A DNA stretch of 64,000 bases, taken from assembly GCA_018401745.1 (NCBI GenBank), contig JAGYJY010000006.1, forward strand, positions 1-64,000. Reading direction: 5' to 3'. The position numbers were made by a program, and so were the translations under genes. The stretch comes from Pirellulales bacterium. GTDB lineage: Bacteria; Planctomycetota; Planctomycetia; Pirellulales; UBA1268. Below the pieces are notes generated by a model. That model searched no databases. It was not told where the DNA came from and saw nothing but the letters and a program-made list of their open reading frames with translations. Shown piece after piece: positions 11,517-64,000 of the stretch (position 1 is its first letter; each line of letters starts with the position of its first letter).

Positions 11517-11520
11517 AAAC

Positions 11521-11725
11521 GGGACGGGTCCTCGGGCCGCAAAGCGAATGCACGCGCGAGCGGGACGGGTCCTCGGGCCGCAAAGCGAATGCACGCGCGA
11601 GCGGGACGGGTCCTCGGGCCGCAAAGCGGCCTCGGCTTTGCCGAGGTGCCTCCGGCACCCGAAGACCCGTCCCGTTCAATCCGCCTCCGGCACCCGAAGA
11701 CCCGTCCCGTTCAATCCGCCCGTCC
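11521..11725. repeat. Dispersed intergenic repeat, family B copy 1 with partial units
   Basis: Two 41-base tandem units starting GGGACGGGTCCTCGGGCCGC (11521 and 11562) lead into a complete 71-base nested palindrome at 11603-11673: outer arms GGGACGGGTC/GACCCGTCCC, inner stem GGCCTCGGC-TTT-GCCGAGG. Further right-arm half units (CGGCACCCGAAGACCCGTCCC-like, split here) follow. Complete copies also occur at 52781-52851 and 60203-60273. Confidence 0.85.
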
Positions 11726-11760
11726 CGCTTGCGCACCGCCACCCCGCTCAGCCCTCGTCC

Positions 11761-11999
11761 CCGGCCGCAGGCCGCCGCTCCTGCGGCGGACTCGCTTCAC
11801 GCCTGCGAAGCCATCCTGGCCTTCGCAGGCTAAGGCGACCAGTCAGAAAGCCAAGGTTTCTGACCGGCCGCAGGCCGCCGCTCCTGCGGCGGACTCGCTT
11901 CACGCCTGCGAAGCCATCCTGGCCTTCGCAGGCTAAGGCGACCAGTCAGAAAGCCAAGGTTTCTGACCGGCCGCAGGCCGCCGCTCCTGCGGCGGACAG
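11761..11999. repeat. 103-bp tandem repeat, about 2.3 copies, each with three hairpins
   Basis: The unit beginning CCGGCCGCAGGCCGCCGCTC starts at 11761, 11864 and 11967, an exact 103-base period. Each full unit contains three inverted repeats: a CCGCAGG.../CCTGCGG hairpin, GCCTGCGAAG/CTTCGCAGGC, and AGTCAGAAA/TTTCTGACC. Copies are nearly identical, which suggests recent duplication or concerted evolution. Not a CRISPR array: there are no variable spacers. Confidence 0.85.
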
Positions 12000-12120
12000 G
12001 CCGTCCTTAAAACCGTAAGCGAGGGGTGAGCCCGGGCCGAATGAGCCGGCCTTGCAGTCGAGCGAAGCCCGGAGGGCGAAAGCGAGAATGCACGAGTGAG
12101 CGAAGCCAGGATGGCGAAGC

Positions 12121-12203
12121 GAACGCTCGGCGAATCGGCCTGGGCTCACCCCGAGCGCCCCCGAACGCTCGGCGAATCGGCCTGGGCTCACCCCGAGCGG
12201 CCC
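12121..12203. repeat. 42-bp direct repeat pair
   Basis: The unit GAACGCTCGGCGAATCGGCC followed by TGGGCTCACCCCGAGCG occurs twice, at 12121 and about 12163. It contains a CGCTCGG/CCGAGCG dyad. The same GGGCTCACCCCGAGCG core recurs at about 60321, linking this tract to the repeats downstream of 59863. It ends about 60 bases before recJ. Confidence 0.75.
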
Positions 12204-12266
12204 CCAGGCGTGAATCTGCTTTAATAGCCACCCATCAACCAGGAACCGAACGCAGGGGGTGGCCCG

Positions 12267-52750: not shown

Positions 52751-52950
52751 CGGGACGGGTCCTCGGAGGACGGAGGGAACGGGACGGGTCCTCGGGCCGC
52801 GCAGCGGCCTCGGCTCCGCCGAGGTGCCTCCGGCACCCGAAGACCCGTCCCGCTTGTCGCACCCGGCACCCGAAGACCCGTCCCGCTTGTCGCACCGGCA
52901 CCCGAAGACCCGTCCCGCTTGTCGCACCCGGCACCTGAAGACCCGTCCCG
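52751..52950. repeat. Dispersed intergenic repeat, family B copy 2 with partial units
   Basis: The complete 71-base nested palindrome occupies 52781-52851 (outer GGGACGGGTC/GACCCGTCCC, inner GGCCTCGGC-TCC-GCCGAGG). A partial left unit precedes it and three right half-units (GCACCCGAAGACCCGTCCC-type) follow. It fills the space between two convergent genes, where a bidirectional terminator might be expected. Confidence 0.85.
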
Positions 52951-52973
52951 CTTCGTCATTTGCCGCCTATGGG

Positions 52974-56478: not shown

Positions 56479-56811
56479 TCAGACCCCGCGGCGACGGGAG
56501 CGAGCCTCCGCAGACTCGACCCGCTGCTCAAGCTCGGCCAGCCGCGACCAGAGGCTCCGGCCTGTTCGCAGAGGCCATTCTCGCACGTCGCGGCCCCGAA
56601 TGGGACTCGCTGTTCGCCCCAGGGCAATCGCCGCCGCGAGGTAGATCGCGATCGTGGCCCACCAGGCCGTCCACCAGGCGATCAGGACCACTGCCAGTCG
56701 CACCCAGAATGCCGCGATGCCGAGCCGGTCAGCGACCCAGCGGCAGACCCCAAAGATCAGCCCGGGGCGTCGCAGGCGGGTGCGTTCCTCTGGCCAGTCA
56801 CGATTGTCCAT
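56479..56811 (-). CDS. PspC domain protein
   Basis: The ATG at 56811 has GAGGAAG upstream. The 110-aa product has a PspC core (PGLIFGVCRWVADRLGIAAF ... WVRLAVVLIAWW) with a membrane segment (AWWATIAIYLAAAIALG) and a C-terminal basic coiled stretch (RLAELEQRVESAEARSR). PspC proteins are inner-membrane stress sensors that interact with PspA/PspB. A longer reading from 56865 adds 18 unconvincing residues. It lies between pspA (68 bases upstream) and the PspC-kinase gene. Confidence 0.85.
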   Translation of the reverse strand: MDNRDWPEERTRLRRPGLIFGVCRWVADRLGIAAFWVRLAVVLIAWWTAWWATIAIYLAAAIALGRTASPIRGRDVREWPLRTGRSLWSRLAELEQRVESAEARSRRRGV

Positions 56812-56879
56812 GAAGGTTCTTCCTCTCAAAGAGTGCGGCGTCACCACAGGCCGCACAGCCCACATCGACAGCAGCCCGA

Positions 56880-57542
56880 TCAGCCACCCTGCCGCTGCTG
56901 CTTGAGAGCCGCCAGCTCCCGATCGAGCTCGTCGTCGCCCTTGAGCGCCTCAAACTGTTCGACCAGCGGGGCGTTGCTCGAAGGATCGACCAGGTCTGCC
57001 TCGGCCTCCATCCGCTCGATCCGATTCTCGAGCCGATCAAAGCGGGCCAGAGCCTCCAGGCTGTCGGCCTTGCGGAGCGTGGTCTGCGCCTGCTTGTGGT
57101 TGCGTGCCCGGGCATGCCGCTGAGCGAGCAGCCGGTGCTTGTCGCGGGCTGTCTGAATCTTGGCTTCGACTGCAGCGATGTCCTGTTTGTACTGCGCGAC
57201 GAGGTCGTTGCAGGCCGCCACCTCCTCGGCAAACACCGCCGCCTTCTCTTCGTACTTTTTCTTCTCGCGGAGCGCCTCGCGGGCGAGATCCTCGCGGCCC
57301 CGGTCGACCGCCAGGCCAGCCCGGTCCTGCCACTCGGCAACAGCTGCCTGGGCCGACGCCGACGCCCGCTCGGCCTTCTTGCGTGCGGCGATCGCTCCGG
57401 CGCAGCTGGCTTTGACCTCGATCAGCGTGTCTTCCATCTCCTGCACCATCAGGCGGATCAGCTTCTCGGGATCCTCCGCCGCGTCGAGCATCGCGTTGAT
57501 ATTGGAACTGATGATGTCTCTCAGCCGTGTGAAGACGCCCAT
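56880..57542 (-). CDS. pspA: PspA/IM30 family phage-shock protein
   Basis: The 220-aa protein matches PspA in length and character: an amphipathic N-terminus (MGVFTRLRDIISSNINAML), then AEDPEKLIRLMVQEMEDTL and continuous charged coiled coil to DDELDRELAALKQQRQ. PspA binds the inner membrane under envelope stress, stabilises it, and in enterobacteria also inhibits PspF. First gene of a leftward operon with pspC and the PspC-kinase, transcribed from the sigma-54 promoter described upstream and divergent from the pspF-like gene. Confidence 0.92.
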   Translation of the reverse strand: MGVFTRLRDIISSNINAMLDAAEDPEKLIRLMVQEMEDTLIEVKASCAGAIAARKKAERASASAQAAVAEWQDRAGLAVDRGREDLAREALREKKKYEEKAAVFAEEVAACNDLVAQYKQDIAAVEAKIQTARDKHRLLAQRHARARNHKQAQTTLRKADSLEALARFDRLENRIERMEAEADLVDPSSNAPLVEQFEALKGDDELDRELAALKQQRQGG

Positions 57543-57621
57543 GGCGAGCCTCCGGTCGTACGTTCAAGCGATTTTGAAAGGGGGCCAACCCACCTGATCA
57601 GCCCGACGGAAGAGATGAGAG

Positions 57622-57637
57622 GCATATTCGGTGCCAA
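57622..57637 (-). promoter_or_regulatory. Sigma-54 promoter of the psp operon
   Basis: On the minus strand the sequence TTGGCACCGAATATGC has the diagnostic GG-N10-GC spacing with a near-consensus -24 box (TTGGCAC) and -12 GC. Transcription would start near 57610, leaving about 68 bases of leader to the pspA ATG. The divergent gene encodes a PspF-like activator, which supports the call. Confidence 0.75.
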
Positions 57638-57769
57638 ACCGGCCATCGTTTCACAACCTGTTGAGAAATAACGACTTAAGGGCCGTGATGCCGAAACATG
57701 CCGAACGCACAAAAGGCGGCATCCCCCACAAAATGGATTTTCTGGCCGTTTCGTGGTAAATGAAACCAC

Positions 57770-58825
57770 ATGCGTGAAGCCCTTGGCCAGTCCGACGCCT
57801 TTCTCTCGTTTGTCGAGCAGCTCTCTCGGGTCGCCGGCGTCGACCGGCCTGTGCTCGTTGTCGGCGAACGAGGCACGGGCAAGGAACTGGCAGCGGCCAA
57901 GATCCACTACCTCTCCCGCCGCTGGGAGTCGCCCTTGGTCGCGCTCAACTGCGCTGCCCTGGCACCCGCCTTGATGGAGGCGGAACTCTTTGGTCACGAA
58001 CGGGGAGCCTTCACGGGTGCGGCCACCAGCCGGGCCGGACGCTTTGAGGCAGCCGACGGCGGGACGCTCTTGCTCGATGAGATTGGGCTGATCCCCATCG
58101 AGGTTCAGGAAAAGATTCTCCGCACGGTGGAGTACGGCAGCTTTGAGCGAGTCGGCAGCTCCAAGCCTCAACAGGTCGATGTGCGAATCGTGGGAGCCAC
58201 CAACGCCGACCTGCCTGCCTTGGTTCACGACGGCCGCTTCAAGGCCGACCTGCTCGACCGGCTCGCATTTGAAGTGATCCGAGTGCCTCCGCTGCGGGAG
58301 CGTGGTGACGACATCCTCCTGCTCGCCCACCATTTCGCCAGCCGGATGGCCCTGGAACTCGGCCGTGAGCAGACGCCCACGTTTTCAGCCAAGGCGAAGC
58401 AGGCCCTGCACGCCCACGACTGGCCGGGAAACGTTCGTGAACTGAAAAACGTGATCGAGCGGGCCGTGTACCGCAGCGACACCACCACCATCAGTGAACT
58501 CATCTTCGACCCGTTCGCGGCCGAGCCGTCCCGATCGCAACACACCCTCGCGAGCCGCAGCACGAAGGATGCCGACGCCCCATCCATCGGCATCCTCGGT
58601 GGCACCGCAGCCTCGTCGACCGAGCCGCTGCCCCACTCGAACGCAGCCACCCAAACACCTCTTCTCGACGCCATTGCCTCCCTGGAGGTCGCCATGCTCA
58701 AGCAGGCGCTCGCAGAGACCCACTACCACCAACGGAAGGCAGCAGAACAACTGGGAATCACCTACCATCAGTTTCGTGGGCTCTACCGCAAACACGCTGG
58801 AGCCCTCAAGCCTCCACCTGCCTGA
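57770..58825 (+). CDS. pspF: PspF-like sigma-54-dependent transcriptional activator
   Basis: The 351-aa protein is an AAA+ enhancer-binding protein without an N-terminal receiver, as in PspF. Walker A is VVGERGTGKEL, the sigma-54-contacting loop GAFTGA is intact in GHERGAFTGAATS, Walker B is TLLLDEIG, and the arginine finger region lies in PLRERGDDILLLAHHF. A Ser/Thr-rich linker leads to a Fis-type helix-turn-helix (HYHQRKAAEQLGITYHQFRG). It should activate the facing psp promoter and might serve the second sigma-54 promoter near 60551. E. coli PspF is of similar length. Confidence 0.9.
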   Translation: MREALGQSDAFLSFVEQLSRVAGVDRPVLVVGERGTGKELAAAKIHYLSRRWESPLVALNCAALAPALMEAELFGHERGAFTGAATSRAGRFEAADGGTLLLDEIGLIPIEVQEKILRTVEYGSFERVGSSKPQQVDVRIVGATNADLPALVHDGRFKADLLDRLAFEVIRVPPLRERGDDILLLAHHFASRMALELGREQTPTFSAKAKQALHAHDWPGNVRELKNVIERAVYRSDTTTISELIFDPFAAEPSRSQHTLASRSTKDADAPSIGILGGTAASSTEPLPHSNAATQTPLLDAIASLEVAMLKQALAETHYHQRKAAEQLGITYHQFRGLYRKHAGALKPPPA

Positions 58826-58906: not shown

Positions 58907-59863
58907 ATGCACACCCCCAGAGGTTCTCGTGTCTCCCGCCGCAGCATGCTCGCTGCCGGCGCGTCGCTCACCGCTGCCGCGGCGTTCCCCACACCGCTCC
59001 TCGCTGCCGACTCACCGGCGCCGGTTGGCCGCCTGCCCAAGTTTGGGGTTTCGACCTATTCCTTCTGGCAGTTCCGCCAGGAGCCGGCGCCGATTGCCGA
59101 CTGCATCGACAAGGCCGCTGCCATGGGCTTCGACGGCGTGGAGATTCTTGAGGTGCAGATGGGGGAAGCCTCCAACGCCCAGCTGCAGCAGCTCAAGCGG
59201 CAGGCCTTCGTCAACGGCCTCGACCTCTACGGCCTTTCCACCCACCAGGGCTTCGTGTCGCCAGATCCCGCCGTGCGGCAGGCCAACATTGAAAAGACGC
59301 TCCGCTCGATCGACCTCGCCTACCGGCTCGGGATTCCCACGATGCGGGTCAACACCGGCCGCTGGGGCACCTCCAAGGACTTCGATGAGCTGATGGCCAA
59401 CCGCGGCATTGAGCCGAGGCTCCCGGGCTACACCGATGACGAGGGCTTTGCCTGGGTGATCGAGGCCTTTGAAAAGTGCCTGCCGGCTGCCGAAGAGAAG
59501 GGCGTGGTGCTCGGCCTGGAAAACCACTGGGGCCTCGGCCGCACCGCAGAAGGCGTGATGCGGATCGTAGAAGCGATCGACTCTCCCTGGCTGCGAGTCA
59601 CCCTCGACACGGGCAACTTCCTAGACGACATGTATCCGCAGATGGAGCGGCTCGCTCCCGACGCCGTGCTTGTGCAGGCCAAGACCTACTACGGCGGCGG
59701 CAAGTGGTACACGCTCGACGTCGACTACGACCGCGTGGCGAGCCTCCTCAAGAAGGTCGGCTACATCGGCTACGTGTCGCTCGAGTTTGAAGGCCAGGGC
59801 GATCCAGCCAGCGAAGTCCCCAAGAGCCTCGCCATGCTCCGCGACGCCTTCGCCAAGGCCTAG
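58907..59863 (+). CDS. Tat-exported sugar phosphate isomerase/epimerase-like protein
   Basis: The 318-aa product begins with a twin-arginine signal (VSRRSMLAAGASLTAAAAF) and is an AP_endonuc_2/xylose-isomerase-like TIM barrel: FGVSTYSFWQFRQE, FDGVEILEVQM, TMRVNTGRW, VVLGLENHWGLGRTAEG, VTLDTGNFLDDMYP, YVSLEFEGQGDP. Glu and Asp residues in the ENHWG, DTGNF and EFEG strands are the likely metal ligands. Role: envelope sugar isomerisation or epimerisation of unknown specificity. It follows pspF by 81 bases but shows no functional link. Confidence 0.9.
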   Translation: MHTPRGSRVSRRSMLAAGASLTAAAAFPTPLLAADSPAPVGRLPKFGVSTYSFWQFRQEPAPIADCIDKAAAMGFDGVEILEVQMGEASNAQLQQLKRQAFVNGLDLYGLSTHQGFVSPDPAVRQANIEKTLRSIDLAYRLGIPTMRVNTGRWGTSKDFDELMANRGIEPRLPGYTDDEGFAWVIEAFEKCLPAAEEKGVVLGLENHWGLGRTAEGVMRIVEAIDSPWLRVTLDTGNFLDDMYPQMERLAPDAVLVQAKTYYGGGKWYTLDVDYDRVASLLKKVGYIGYVSLEFEGQGDPASEVPKSLAMLRDAFAKA

Positions 59864-59925
59864 CACCGTGTTCGTCTCGCCCTGGCCGCGAGGAGCGGGG
59901 CGAGGAGACGGCGGGCGGATGGTGA

Positions 59926-60190
59926 GGAGACCGCGCGCGGTGGTCCGGCTCGGCAGGCGGCAAAAGTCGCGTCGCTGGGCCAGGATAGGCCAAACGCTCC
60001 GCGAGCGTTCGCCGACCCGCCGAGCCTCCCCAGTTCGTCAATAAAGGGAGGGGACGGAGAGGAGACCGCGCGCGGTGGTCCGGCTCGGCAGGCGGCAAAA
60101 GTCGCGTCGCTGGGCCAGGATAGGCCAAACGCTCCGCGAGCGTTCGCCGACCCGCCGAGCCTCCCCAGTTCGTCAATGAAGGGAGGGGGA
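59926..60190. repeat. Dispersed intergenic repeat, family A, two tandem copies
   Basis: Two nearly identical copies start at 59926 and 60061 (135-base period). Each has outer arms GGCTCGGCAGGCGG / CCGACCCGCCGAGCC and an inner AACGCTC-CGC-GAGCGTT hairpin. They match the single copy at 11385-11516 but differ in one loop base set (CGC here, CTC there). Confidence 0.85.
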
Positions 60191-60202
60191 CGGAGAGGGA
60201 AC

Positions 60203-60273
60203 GGGACGGGTCCGCGGGCCGCGAAGCGGCCTCGGCGAAGCCGAGGTGCCTGCGGCACCCGTGGACCCGTCCC
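60203..60273. repeat. Dispersed intergenic repeat, family B copy 3
   Basis: A 71-base nested palindrome equal in length to those at 11603 and 52781. Outer arms GGGACGGGTC/GACCCGTCCC and inner stem GGCCTCGGC-GAA-GCCGAGG are kept while the triloop and several paired bases differ (CCGCGGG with CCCGTGG in place of CCTCGGG with CCCGAAG), that is, compensatory change. Confidence 0.85.
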
Positions 60274-60347
60274 GCTTGCGCGGCGGATGGCCCGCAGCGA
60301 GCGTCCGGAGGGGCAGCCCCGGGCTCACCCCGAGCGACCCCACCAGG

Positions 60348-60451
60348 TGGAGCGATTCGCACCAGTCAGGTGGAGCGATTCGCTCCAGCACACCCCGCCG
60401 GAGCGTCATGGTGGAGCGATTCGCACCAGCCAGGTGGAGCGATTCGCTCCA
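60348..60451. promoter_or_regulatory. Four tandem 17-bp dyads, possible enhancer/operator array
   Basis: Copies at 60348, 60371, 60412 and 60435 follow TGGAGCGATTCGCTCCA; the second and fourth are perfect palindromes, the first and third carry one mismatch (GCACCA). Spacing is 23, 41, 23: a duplicated pair with a 64-base period. They lie about 100-205 bases upstream of the sigma-54-like -24 box at 60551, the usual distance for enhancer-binding-protein sites. They could instead be part of the neighbouring palindromic repeats. Confidence 0.55.
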
Positions 60452-60520
60452 CCTCCTCCGCAGCGTCCCCTTCGCCCTGCTGAGAAAAAAGGCCGCTGAA
60501 ACTCCGAGAAAAACGCGTTT

Positions 60521-60537
60521 TCTGAGGATTCCTCAGA
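60521..60537. promoter_or_regulatory. Perfect 17-bp palindrome next to the sigma-54-like promoter
   Basis: TCTGAGGA-T-TCCTCAGA sits 14 bases ahead of the -24 region. It may be a binding site for a repressor or for a bending protein; nothing further can be said from sequence. Confidence 0.4.
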
Positions 60538-60550
60538 GGCTGCCACGGCT

Positions 60551-60568
60551 TTGGCACGCGAAGTGCAA
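60551..60568 (+). promoter_or_regulatory. Sigma-54-like promoter of the pseudo-receiver operon
   Basis: TTGGCACGCGAAGTGCAA has GG-N10-GC spacing, a consensus -24 box (TTGGCACG) and a -12 box GTGCA close to TTGCA. The start of transcription would be near 60578, giving a leader of about 215 bases before the first small gene at 60793. I see no coding sequence in that leader. Confidence 0.65.
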
Positions 60569-60792
60569 CTTATTTCTTGCAGCGACAGGCTCTGAAGAGC
60601 CCGATTCCGGCGACCGCTCAGGTCGCAAGGCGTCGGCTGTTTGAGGCCTTTTGCGAACGAGGTCTGCCGGGGCGTCTCGGCAGGGCTCGCGTTTCAACAC
60701 GTTGGGCACGAAACACGCTGCGTCCGAGAGCCGCCTGGCTTTTTGGAGATGCGTTTCCGTGCAAGGAGGTCCGTCGTCAAAGGAGTTCGCTC

Positions 60793-60918
60793 ATGAACTT
60801 TCGAGGAAAAGCGGGATCAGCCTCTGCCCTGGCTGATTCCTGGCACCTCACCCATGCAGACATCCTCTGCTGTGCGGTGCCGATCGTGGTGTTCCTCTCG
60901 ATCATTTCTGTGGTCTAG
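60793..60918 (+). CDS. 41-aa single-span membrane peptide
   Basis: A strong AGGAG ribosome-binding site lies 7 bases before the ATG. The peptide starts MNFRGKAGSASALADSW and ends in a hydrophobic segment (ILCCAVPIVVFLSIISVV) that runs to the C-terminus, so it should be a tail-anchored or small single-pass membrane protein with a vicinal CysCys. I do not recognise a family. It is the first gene after the sigma-54-like promoter; the next three genes follow on the same strand at 77-94-base gaps. Confidence 0.6.
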   Translation: MNFRGKAGSASALADSWHLTHADILCCAVPIVVFLSIISVV

Positions 60919-61005
60919 CTGGATACACCGTCCTGTTTGAAAAGCTTGTTGTCAGCAACCGTCCGTTCCGTCATTCCACTGCCGATTTTTAAGAGGGTCT
61001 TCATC

Positions 61006-61386
61006 GTGAAAAACGCCACCGCACTGCGAGTCTTCGTCGCCGGCGTCGCTGTTTCGTTTGCCTGTGCGACTGCCACTGCCAACGAAATGTCGCATCGCGT
61101 TGCCCTCGGGATCACTCCCACGCCTGTCTCGATTCCGCTGCCGTCCGGTGAGCTTTCGCTCGGCCTCGACGACATCACGTCGGTTGAGGTGCTGGGCCTG
61201 ACGCGGGCTGAGGCGGATCAGGTGGTTGCGGCCCGCGGCATGTCTGGCCTTTCGGCCGCTGTGCTGCCGGCAGTGGTGGGTGACCTCTTCGGCATGCCGC
61301 CGGTGTCGTCCAACTGGGACAGCGTGCGGGCGGCTGTTGCCGCTGGCGGCTTCGCCACCCGGCCCACCGTCGGTGTGGATGAGTGA
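61006..61386 (+). CDS. Small exported protein, function unknown
   Basis: The GTG at 61006 (AGAGGG about 9 bases upstream) gives 126 aa with a signal peptide (ALRVFVAGVAVSFACATATA, cleavage near ATANE). The mature part has a Pro-rich patch (TPTPVSIPLPSGELSLGLDD), a helical stretch (LGLTRAEADQVVAARG) and a Gly/Ala-rich end. No cysteines remain after cleavage and no known domain is apparent. It is probably periplasmic and belongs with the two pseudo-receiver genes downstream. Confidence 0.6.
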   Translation: MKNATALRVFVAGVAVSFACATATANEMSHRVALGITPTPVSIPLPSGELSLGLDDITSVEVLGLTRAEADQVVAARGMSGLSAAVLPAVVGDLFGMPPVSSNWDSVRAAVAAGGFATRPTVGVDE

Positions 61387-61480
61387 GTCACAGAACTTTC
61401 GTTTGAATCTTCAATACAGAGCCCCCACTGATTCCCCTGACATCCTGAAACTCGGAATCAGCACGCGGAGAACACTGATC

Positions 61481-62002
61481 GTGAACCTGCCAAACGCCTA
61501 CGACCGACGAGACATGGCCAAGGATTCGGCCGCTTCCTCGCAGCAAGCCCCTGTGCGAGAGATCGTGATCGTCGATCCGCACTGCGATCGCTATGCCGAC
61601 TTTGTGACGGCGGCCATGGACGGTGAGATCGGTCTTCACTTCTGCAACGACGCCCAGTCGGCCATCAAGCTCGCTCGACGCTTCCGAGCGGATGTCTGGC
61701 TCGTCAGCGAAGAACTGCCCGACATGGAAGGCTTCGACCTGCTGCCGCTGCTGGCCAATCAGGTCAGCCAGAGCGAGGTCGATCCTCTGCTGCGTGGCCG
61801 TCGCCAGTCGCTCGGCCGCGTTGGCCAGGGTCGCCACTCCGGCATCTTCATCGTTGCCGACGACTACAGCATCGAAGGCGAGCAGCGGTCTTTGGCAGCG
61901 GGCATTGCCGGCTACCTCGTGCGGCCTCTCTCCGCCGAACTCGTGCAGGCCCTGCGGCCCGCCGAATCAGCCCCAGCCTTCCTCGATGTTGTCGAGGCCT
62001 GA
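61481..62002 (+). CDS. Pseudo-receiver domain protein 1
   Basis: The GTG at 61481 has GGAG about 10 bases upstream; ATG at 61514 is an alternative. The 173-aa protein has CheY-like topology (REIVIVDPHCDRYADFV, ADVWLVSEELPDMEGFDLLP, SGIFIVADDY, AAGIAGYLVRPLSAELVQAL) but lacks the phosphorylation site: the expected Asp at the end of strand 3 is Ser (LVSEELPD), one acidic-pocket Asp is Pro, and the strand-5 Lys is Arg. So it is a receiver fold used without phosphotransfer, probably for protein contacts. A loop insert (RGRRQSLGRVGQGRHS) separates strands 3 and 4. Paralogous to the next gene and of equal length. Confidence 0.75.
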   Translation: MNLPNAYDRRDMAKDSAASSQQAPVREIVIVDPHCDRYADFVTAAMDGEIGLHFCNDAQSAIKLARRFRADVWLVSEELPDMEGFDLLPLLANQVSQSEVDPLLRGRRQSLGRVGQGRHSGIFIVADDYSIEGEQRSLAAGIAGYLVRPLSAELVQALRPAESAPAFLDVVEA

Positions 62003-62079
62003 GCCACTCGCGGCTCTCTCACGCATTCCATCCGATTCAACAGATCCTTTTGCATTCACGTTTTTCCAGGAGTTCTCCA

Positions 62080-62601
62080 ATGGTCATGAAGCTCGCCAAA
62101 GCGATCCAGGCTCCCAGCGTCGTCGTCATCGACCCTCGCTTTGAGGCCTATCAGGAACTCGTGGAGAGCGCCCGCTCCGGCCGCATCGGCCTGCACCTGC
62201 GAAGCTCCGGTGCTGAGGGCCTGGCCCTGGCGAAGAAGCATGCGGTTGACGCCTGGCTTGTGGCAGCCGACCTCGACGACATGTCAGGCCTCGACTTTGT
62301 CGAACTGCTCCGCAACCAGCTGGAAGCCTCGCAGACGACCGACAGCGAAGGCGGCCAGCAGCGGGTCGCGATCGTCAGCGAAGTGCCCGGCAAGCCTGGC
62401 CACTGGGAAGCCACCGAGCATGGAGCCGACCACTCGATGGTCAAGCCGATCTCGATGGCCGACCTCGAGACCTTCCTCGAGATGACCCCGGCTGAGCGGG
62501 AGATGATTCTCCCCGGCCGTGACCTCGCCCGCTCGATCCTCACCCTCCCGGTGAGCATGGGTGCCGCCGTCGTCGCCCTCGCGGTGGTGATGCTCGGCTG
62601 A
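62080..62601 (+). CDS. Pseudo-receiver domain protein 2 with C-terminal membrane segment
   Basis: CCAGGAG precedes the ATG at 62080. The 173-aa protein parallels its neighbour: PSVVVIDPRFEAYQELV, VDAWLVAADLDDMSGLDFVE, RVAIVSEVPG, GADHSMVKPISMADLETFLE. The phospho-acceptor position is Ala (LVAADLDD), though the strand-5 Lys is kept (MVKPIS). The C-terminus is a membrane segment (LTLPVSMGAAVVALAVVMLG), so this one is tail-anchored to the inner membrane with the fold in the cytosol. Together they look like a membrane and a soluble partner of one signalling or assembly complex. A strong terminator follows 28 bases later. Confidence 0.75.
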   Translation: MVMKLAKAIQAPSVVVIDPRFEAYQELVESARSGRIGLHLRSSGAEGLALAKKHAVDAWLVAADLDDMSGLDFVELLRNQLEASQTTDSEGGQQRVAIVSEVPGKPGHWEATEHGADHSMVKPISMADLETFLEMTPAEREMILPGRDLARSILTLPVSMGAAVVALAVVMLG

Positions 62602-62629
62602 GCCGGAAGTGGCCTGTCAACGAACAAGA

Positions 62630-62670: not shown

Positions 62671-64000
62671 TCAGGCAACGTCTGGAGGGCTCATCGCCGG
62701 CGAGGGCAACGCAGCCGTCGACGCTTCCTCAGTCTCAGGCCGCCGTGCTCTTCCCCGGCGGCCGTTGAGCAGCCAGCCGATCGGCGTGTGACGGACAAAG
62801 AGCTGGTAGCTCACCAGGAGCACCGCCGTGGCCAGCACGCATTCCAGGAAGAGCTTCAGCAACGGCGGCCAGGGCCAGGGGCGAGCCCAGGTCTGGAGGG
62901 CCACGAGCACCGGAATGTGCGCAAGATAAAGCCAGTAGGCTGAGTCGGAAATATATCTCACCACCGTGTTTTCTGACCGCAGCATCGCTCGAAAGAGCCC
63001 GATCAGGCCGAACGACATCAGCCAGGCAAAGAGCACCTGCGGAACGGCCGTTGCCACGGGATTGCCCATCGACGCCGCCGCTGCTGGAAAGCAGGCGAGC
63101 ACCGCCAGCGGGAGCAGCAGCCACCAGCGACGGCCCACCCTGTTCTCGGGATCTCCTACAAAAAAGAGCAGGCCGCCGTAGCCGAAGAAGATGCCGTAAT
63201 AGACGAGCAGGTGCGGCTGTGGCAGCAGACTCAGTGACGTGTCGGGACCGACGTTGGGGCCGAAGACACCCATAAAAAGCTGCGGGATCGCCGTCAGCGG
63301 CACGAGCCACAGCAGCACCGCAGGCGAAACAACGAGCCAGCGGGGAGGCGTGGGAAGCTTCAGCATGCTTGCCAGCCCAGCGAGGATCGTGAACCCAACG
63401 ACCAGCCAGCAGAGGAACCAGAGAAACCAGAGGTGGCCGAAGATCGGGCCCATGAAGAGGCTTTGCGGCATCCATCTCGGCGGGAGCGGCACCACAAACT
63501 GTTCTGAGGTGAGCCAGGCTGTGTAGGCCTGGCGAAGACCGGCAAGCCCCGGCCGTCGGGACTCGTCGTCATTGCCCTGCACTCGCCGCGGCTCTTCCTT
63601 CTCCGCTTCGTCTGGATCGGCCCCGCTGGCGATGGCGAGCAGCTGCCGCACACGCTTTCGGCCTGCCTCAACCTCGTCCATGTCGGGCGTGGGGAGGCTC
63701 AGGACACCAGCCAGCATCGTCGTTGTGGCCGCATCGACCCTCGACGAATCGATCGGCGTGTCGCCGACCGGTCCCTTGGGCAGCGGCGTTGCTCCGCGGG
63801 CGAGCAACAGGTCCACGACCTCGGCCTTCCCCATGAAGGCCGCCGCGTGCATCGCGGTCCGTCCGCCCTGATCACGGCCGTTGACATCGGCCCCGTGGTC
63901 GATCAGCTCCCTGGCGACGTCGACATGCCCAAGCACGGCCGCCGTAGTCAGCAAGGGCGACTTCGACGCCGGATCCACCAGCGGCGGCCGGGGCCCTTCG
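62671..64000 (-). CDS. Ankyrin-repeat/acyltransferase-3-like membrane protein, N-terminus outside window
   Basis: The frame is open to the window edge and reads PPLVDPASKSPLLTTAAV there, so the start is off the right end. Ankyrin repeats come first (HVDVARELIDHGADVNGRDQ, GGRTAMHAAAFMGKAEVVDL), then a Glu/Arg-rich linker and about eight membrane segments (HLWFLWFLCWLVVGFTILAG, LLVYYGIFFGYGGLLFFVG, AYWLYLAHIPVLVALQTWA) like the C-terminal half of acyltransferase-3/OpgC proteins. Since the typical catalytic first helix region of that family is not seen here, it may lie upstream, which would make the ankyrin block an insert inside the enzyme. Probable role: acylation of an envelope glycan. Confidence 0.75.
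   Translation of the reverse strand, partial: EGPRPPLVDPASKSPLLTTAAVLGHVDVARELIDHGADVNGRDQGGRTAMHAAAFMGKAEVVDLLLARGATPLPKGPVGDTPIDSSRVDAATTTMLAGVLSLPTPDMDEVEAGRKRVRQLLAIASGADPDEAEKEEPRRVQGNDDESRRPGLAGLRQAYTAWLTSEQFVVPLPPRWMPQSLFMGPIFGHLWFLWFLCWLVVGFTILAGLASMLKLPTPPRWLVVSPAVLLWLVPLTAIPQLFMGVFGPNVGPDTSLSLLPQPHLLVYYGIFFGYGGLLFFVGDPENRVGRRWWLLLPLAVLACFPAAAASMGNPVATAVPQVLFAWLMSFGLIGLFRAMLRSENTVVRYISDSAYWLYLAHIPVLVALQTWARPWPWPPLLKLFLECVLATAVLLVSYQLFVRHTPIGWLLNGRRGRARRPETEEASTAALPSPAMSPPDVA

Follow-up and report, generated by a model that had tools for sequence, protein, structure and literature searches.

A tandem dyad array as a predicted enhancer of a sigma-54-type promoter, with counterparts before PEP-CTERM genes in planctomycetes

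What is the role of four closely spaced 17-bp dyads that stand before a small operon in the genome of a Pirellulales bacterium? The window analyzed here, a stretch of 64,000 nucleotides (contig JAGYJY010000006.1), contains these predicted activator sites on the plus strand at 60348-60364, 60371-60387, 60412-60428 and 60435-60451; the first and third read TGGAGCGATTCGCACCA, and the second and fourth read TGGAGCGATTCGCTCCA. A sequence-only reading had described them as a pair that occurs twice, and the array was recovered in this form, with start spacings of 23, 41 and 23 bases and a pair period of 64 bases. Central base aside, two of the four dyads are perfect and the remaining two carry one extra mismatch in the right arm. 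When up to three mismatches were allowed, 10 strand matches to the dyad were found in the window, compared with a shuffle expectation of 0.51 and a maximum of three in 100 shuffles. These matches correspond to the four array sites and to a site in a coding region (59643), each on both strands.

Downstream of the array lies a sigma-54-type -24/-12 promoter (60552-60567, plus strand; TGGCACGCGAAGTGCA), which agrees with 11 of 12 scored positions, a score that only two other sites in the window equal or exceed. It reads TGGCACG-CGAA-GTGCA, with GG at 60553-60554, N10 and GC at 60565-60566, and has GTGC in place of the usual consensus TTGC. The bare GG-N10-GC pattern was uninformative, with 1387 occurrences in the window versus 1389 expected. 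We also looked for sigma-70 promoters and intrinsic terminators between 59800 and 61600 and found none, and an Rfam search of 59800-62200 gave no informative match, the one hit being a snoRNA at E 0.95. The spacer from the end of the fourth dyad to the promoter is 100 bases long (60452-60551), and the arrays described below lie mostly 80-155 bp upstream of their promoters, positions that fit the proposed upstream activating sequence. Upstream activating sequences of the NtrC/NifA type are dyads, often paired, that lie some 100-200 bp in front of -24/-12 promoters. The arrays share this layout, whereas their dyad sequence differs from that of NtrC and NifA sites, and their up to five in-phase sites also set them apart. 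Three features of a sigma-54 promoter with an upstream activating sequence are found here, namely a -24 GG/-12 GC element, oriented dyads, and a genome that encodes RpoN and AAA+ activators.

Four genes on the plus strand follow the promoter. The first (60793-60918) encodes a 41-aa peptide whose C-terminus is hydrophobic and conserved (LTxxDxxLCxxPIxxFLSIVSLV-like); for this peptide, 25 distinct homologous stretches were found among the fetched loci, the window copy counted. The second (61006-61386) encodes a 126-aa protein with an N-terminus that resembles a signal peptide by eye and with no match in Pfam or NCBIfam. The third (61481-62002) and fourth (62086-62601) encode receiver-like proteins, here called RR1 and RR2, whose matches to Pfam Response_reg (E 3e-4 and E 5e-6, respectively) lie under the gathering score; RR2 has a hydrophobic C-terminus. 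At the column that we take, from general knowledge, to be that of the phospho-aspartate, all 10 of the 10 aligned RR1 sequences have S, N or A. The structure model of RR1 is poor (mean pLDDT 51.6), and the order of strands and helices predicted in it alternates. The array, the promoter and the four genes are all contained in a duplicated segment (60056-62603, plus strand; copy at G000:C4, 96% over 2.55 kb), in which the promoter is likewise present and which ends two bases past the last stop codon; a flanking 150-bp piece of the duplication begins at 59915. Adjoining the operon on the minus strand (62671-63978), ankyrin repeats are fused to an acyltransferase domain.

Does the same layout occur elsewhere? 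A search of the genome for the dyad at other -24/-12 promoters, as the sequence-only reading had proposed, was conducted in the own genome, which is a 74% complete draft. The dyad TGGNGCRAWTYGCNCCA with at most one mismatch gave eight clusters, while a reversed control pattern gave one match per strand. Seven of the eight clusters had an outward sigma-54-type site, defined as one that agrees with at least 10 of the 12 scored positions and faces away from the dyads; at cluster C21:197980 the -12 element is a poor match. One cluster on contig C23 precedes a PEP-CTERM gene with Pfam PEP-CTERM and FGE-sulfatase domains, one on contig C21 precedes a large PEP-CTERM protein, two more clusters on C21 stand before open frames rich in glycine, and one cluster precedes a pair that looks like a toxin-antitoxin pair by eye. 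The majority of the PEP-CTERM genes in this genome were not linked to an array. On C21, five dyad clusters with a mostly similar promoter layout occur within 33 kb (L021, L022 and L023; G000:C21:188248-221171), and several of them precede large glycine-rich frames, one with a PEP-CTERM tail at its end; the cluster before the pair that resembles toxin-antitoxin also lies here.

We then considered the own and related genomes together, in which 45 clusters were found: 35 multi-dyad arrays (two or more dyads) and 10 single dyads. Among the matches listed, which are complete for eight genomes, arrays of two to five copies occur both within the own genus and across further genera of its family. An outward site was present at 31 of the 35 multi-dyad arrays and an inward site at two, and the rate at random positions was 4.7% of 2241. 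The 10 single-dyad clusters had four outward and two inward sites; single dyads in more distant genomes were mostly left out of the fetched DNA behind this count, one (G030) being included. A collection-wide scan for the pair pattern in the contigs of 84,980 species gave 74 loci, which are mostly planctomycete by title, the exceptions being one Synechococcus, one Acidobacteria, one Spartobacteria and bacteria without further name. We counted 70 of these loci as arrays and dropped four (L271, L281, L282 and L297) that lack two dyads. Outward sites again prevailed over inward ones, at 60 versus two of the 70 arrays with a threshold of at least 10/12, and at 49 versus none with at least 11/12. 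The related-genome and collection sets share at least 13 arrays and are therefore not independent. A recognised promoter is absent at four of the 35 and 10 of the 70 arrays, some of which are cut by contig ends.

The spacing of the dyads is also regular. The spacings in the own and related genomes were 22-25, 30-35, 41-45 and 66 bp, with one of 60, and those of 22-23, 32-33 and 43-45 bp correspond to whole helical turns, in agreement with the suggestion that the pairs in the window are set about two turns apart. At a period of 10.6-10.8 bp the phase concentration R was 0.73 for 60 related-genome spacings and 0.91 for 121 collection spacings, each above all of 2000 null sets; for the related-genome spacings the period was 10.7-10.8 bp and the largest null R 0.46. 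The gap from array to promoter, with a mean of 112-117 bp in the related genomes and the collection, is likewise phased in the collection (R 0.68, reached by none of 5000 null sets), with a best period of about 11.6. Over the 90 bases immediately 5' of the promoter, the A+T content at 60 collection promoters is 0.37-0.49 per 10-base bin, compared with 0.28-0.35 further upstream, and this A+T-richer spacer may allow the DNA to bend.

To which genes do these promoters lead? Classes were assigned by tblastn with the window proteins and by a sequence pattern that describes the PEP-CTERM tail. Every one of the 48 promoters that could be classed stands before either a PEP-CTERM gene (20) or homologues of the operon in the window (28), the remaining 12 of the 60 promoters having at most 407 bases downstream and being left unclassed. 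Seven of the 28 window-type operons start with a short PEP-CTERM-tailed gene. One odd PEP-CTERM hit (L288) was checked, and VPEP is present in it.

The sequence evidence thus strongly supports the prediction that the four dyads are an enhancer, or upstream activating sequence, for the sigma-54 promoter. This introduces the question of which activator might bind them. Eight strong genes for sigma-54 activators were found in the own genome. We performed an orthologue search over 12 genomes of the family, six with arrays and six without, in which all 118 activators were parsed and three divergent activator rows were left out of the comparison. Five core activators occurred in all 12 genomes, with or without arrays. 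Orthologues of one activator, here called C23-type, were found in all six array-bearing genomes versus none of the six array-free ones. In 17 further genomes, the C23-type protein was present in six of six with arrays and absent from all four same-family genomes without arrays and all six outgroups; G017 has the protein and one weak dyad match only. Of 21 genomes taken from the collection loci, all 17 planctomycete genomes with arrays have it (66-71% identity; one copy is a short fragment where the contig ends, and another is partial), and none of the four non-planctomycete genomes does (best match at most 51%). With G017 set aside and the split own copy included, the C23-type protein therefore occurs in 30 of the 31 genomes that contain dyad pairs and in none of the 19 that do not. 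The exception, one of the four non-planctomycete genomes, is that of the Spartobacteria locus L308, which has two dyads and neither a promoter nor a C23-type protein.

In a FastTree of the five core activators, which has one poorly supported node, the array-bearing genomes do not form one clade. Since genus g1, with arrays, pairs with g3, without them (support 1.0), a parsimony count gives at least three changes of the trait. RpoN was found in 12 of 13 genomes, the own genome among them. Two genomes of one genus (G005 and G015) have no PEP-CTERM match, dyad match or C23-type activator, and G015 in addition lacks any match to the DNA-binding domain of RpoN. The C23-type protein consists of a sigma-54 AAA+ domain and a Fis-type HTH of the NKSLAAKMLGIDRSVLRRKLQRYGLD kind, with no receiver. 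The own-genome copy of its gene is divided between two frames, which could reflect either a pseudogene or an assembly error. Autoregulation by the C23-type protein was rejected, as neither a dyad array nor a strong sigma-54 site was found in 14 loci.

From this co-occurrence, a role of the C23-type protein as the activator is suggested, and we consider it likely that this protein binds the dyads and drives the operon from 60552-60567, the array in the window being one copy of a planctomycete enhancer code. In such a mechanism, dimers of the receiver-less AAA+ activator would occupy the dyads along the same side of the helix through their Fis-type HTH, and the bound dimers would build an active ATPase assembly. 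The complex would then reach the sigma-54 polymerase at 60552-60567 across about 100 bp of A+T-richer DNA, where ATP hydrolysis would open the promoter and allow the operon at 60793-62601 to be transcribed. The regulon would have two classes of target, PEP-CTERM surface proteins on the one hand and the operon for a small membrane peptide and aspartate-less receiver-like proteins on the other.

We also considered the possibility that the dyads are a true sigma-54 enhancer with another binder, either a receiver-less protein of a second type (C9-type; G000:C9:127651-128148) or a core activator. C9-type orthologues are present in all array-bearing family genomes compared (six of six in the twelve-genome set), PEP-CTERM genes adjoin C9-like paralogues in G009 and G023, and the split of the C23-type gene in the own genome also counts for another binder. 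However, C9-type proteins (at least 60% identity) also occur in two of the six array-free family genomes (G009 and G018) and in the array-free outgroups G024, G030 and G035, and the core activators, being present in 12 of 12 genomes, neither support nor exclude a binder of their kind. We regard this alternative as unlikely. The PEP-CTERM matches beside C9-like activators (G009:C18:23783-25583, G023:C77:13104-14674 and G023:C230:12601-14174), one of which genomes is array-free, hint at a second, C9-like activator lineage for PEP-CTERM genes. The PspF gene adjoins the array in the window, but PspF was rejected as the binder because the protein is missing from four of the six array genomes; the intergenic region of its own gene yielded no such dyad either.

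The dyads could instead bind a repressor or an architectural protein at sigma-54 promoters. A dyad by itself does not identify its protein, and some repressors use palindromes of about this length. However, an enhancer would account for the position mostly 80-155 bp upstream, the phased copies, the A+T-richer spacer and the fact that a sigma-54 activator occurs together with the arrays. In addition, sigma-54 promoters need an activator, and an unsystematic look noticed no other conserved element at these promoters, so that we hold this explanation to be very improbable.

Palindromic and tandem repeats abound around the array. G+C-rich repeats, both tandem and inverted, occur in the window at 59917-60274, 11520-12205 and 52830-52953, and those adjoining the array include two copies of a 135-bp unit as well as inverted repeats of 35 nt. 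The 135-bp family is also present on contig C4 without dyads; therefore, the dyads are not part of it. That the dyads belong to a mobile or palindromic (REP-like) repeat family and stand here by chance, as the repeat-rich surroundings and the position inside a duplicated segment might suggest, is hardly credible, given that the 135-bp family lacks dyads elsewhere on C4, that orientation and phasing to promoters are conserved in other genera, and that dyads lying mostly away from promoters, which the sequence-only reading had named as contrary evidence, are not what the following sets gave (promoters at 7/8, 31/35 and 60/70 clusters or arrays in the own genome, the related genomes and the collection).

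The enhancer reading invites comparison with known systems. Passages of Haft et al. 2006 (PMC1569441) describe a 17-nt motif 1 and a sigma-54 motif 2 before proteobacterial PEP-CTERM genes and assign them to PrsR, which has a receiver domain; motif 1 is sometimes repeated, ends in TTTACA and is separated from motif 2 by a mean of 63 nt. The same passages state that the PrsK/PrsR regulon is confined to Proteobacteria and that further regulators and motifs remain. The arrays resemble that system in having a 17-nt motif 5' of a -24/-12 promoter before PEP-CTERM genes (here 20 of the 48 classifiable promoters). However, the motif here is TGGNGCGAWTCGCNCCA, without a TTTACA end, the mean gap is 112-117 bp, and the phylum is Planctomycetota. 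The C23-type candidate also differs from PrsR in lacking a receiver and in scoring 263-291 bits against TIGR02915, the PrsR equivalog, which is under the cut-off of 502.6; among the own-genome activators reported against this model none reached 502.6 bits, the best scoring 365. It is like PspF in having an AAA+ domain followed by a Fis-type HTH without a receiver, but PspF models were not among its matches at the threshold used, and the targets differ. In Aquincola, the transcription of a PEP-CTERM gene is RpoN-dependent, according to passages of PMC9850573. A 2025 survey of sigma-54 (PMC12316311) covers Planctomycetota, and its main text is without the words PEP-CTERM and exosortase. We found no report of a planctomycete regulon of this kind in the open-access literature searched, most subscription journals and all of bioRxiv being outside the scope of this search. 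The recurrence of the dyad-promoter layout in many uncultured planctomycetes, 5' of exported surface-protein genes, points to an undescribed gene-control circuit. Uncultured planctomycetes would then have a sigma-54 regulon for PEP-CTERM proteins whose DNA code can be read, whose members are predicted and for which there is one activator candidate. The unnamed operon of small peptide and receiver-like proteins would also gain a function-linked handle.

A more tentative idea is that the circuit regulates itself. PspA restrains PspF, and by this model the RR proteins and the membrane peptide might feed back in trans on the activator, replacing its missing receiver. We think this possible though rather doubtful. 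If it is true, the exosortase substrates of planctomycetes would be under phosphorylation-free, membrane-linked control. The window itself contains a pspF-pspA-pspC cluster at 56482-58825, with PspF encoded at 57770-58825. PspF passes its NCBIfam equivalog cut-off (471.6 versus 443.55 bits), PspA is just under its own (240.2 versus 242.95), and PspC is under that of NCBIfam and above that of Pfam. A sigma-54-like site (9/12) at 57621 on the minus strand faces pspA.
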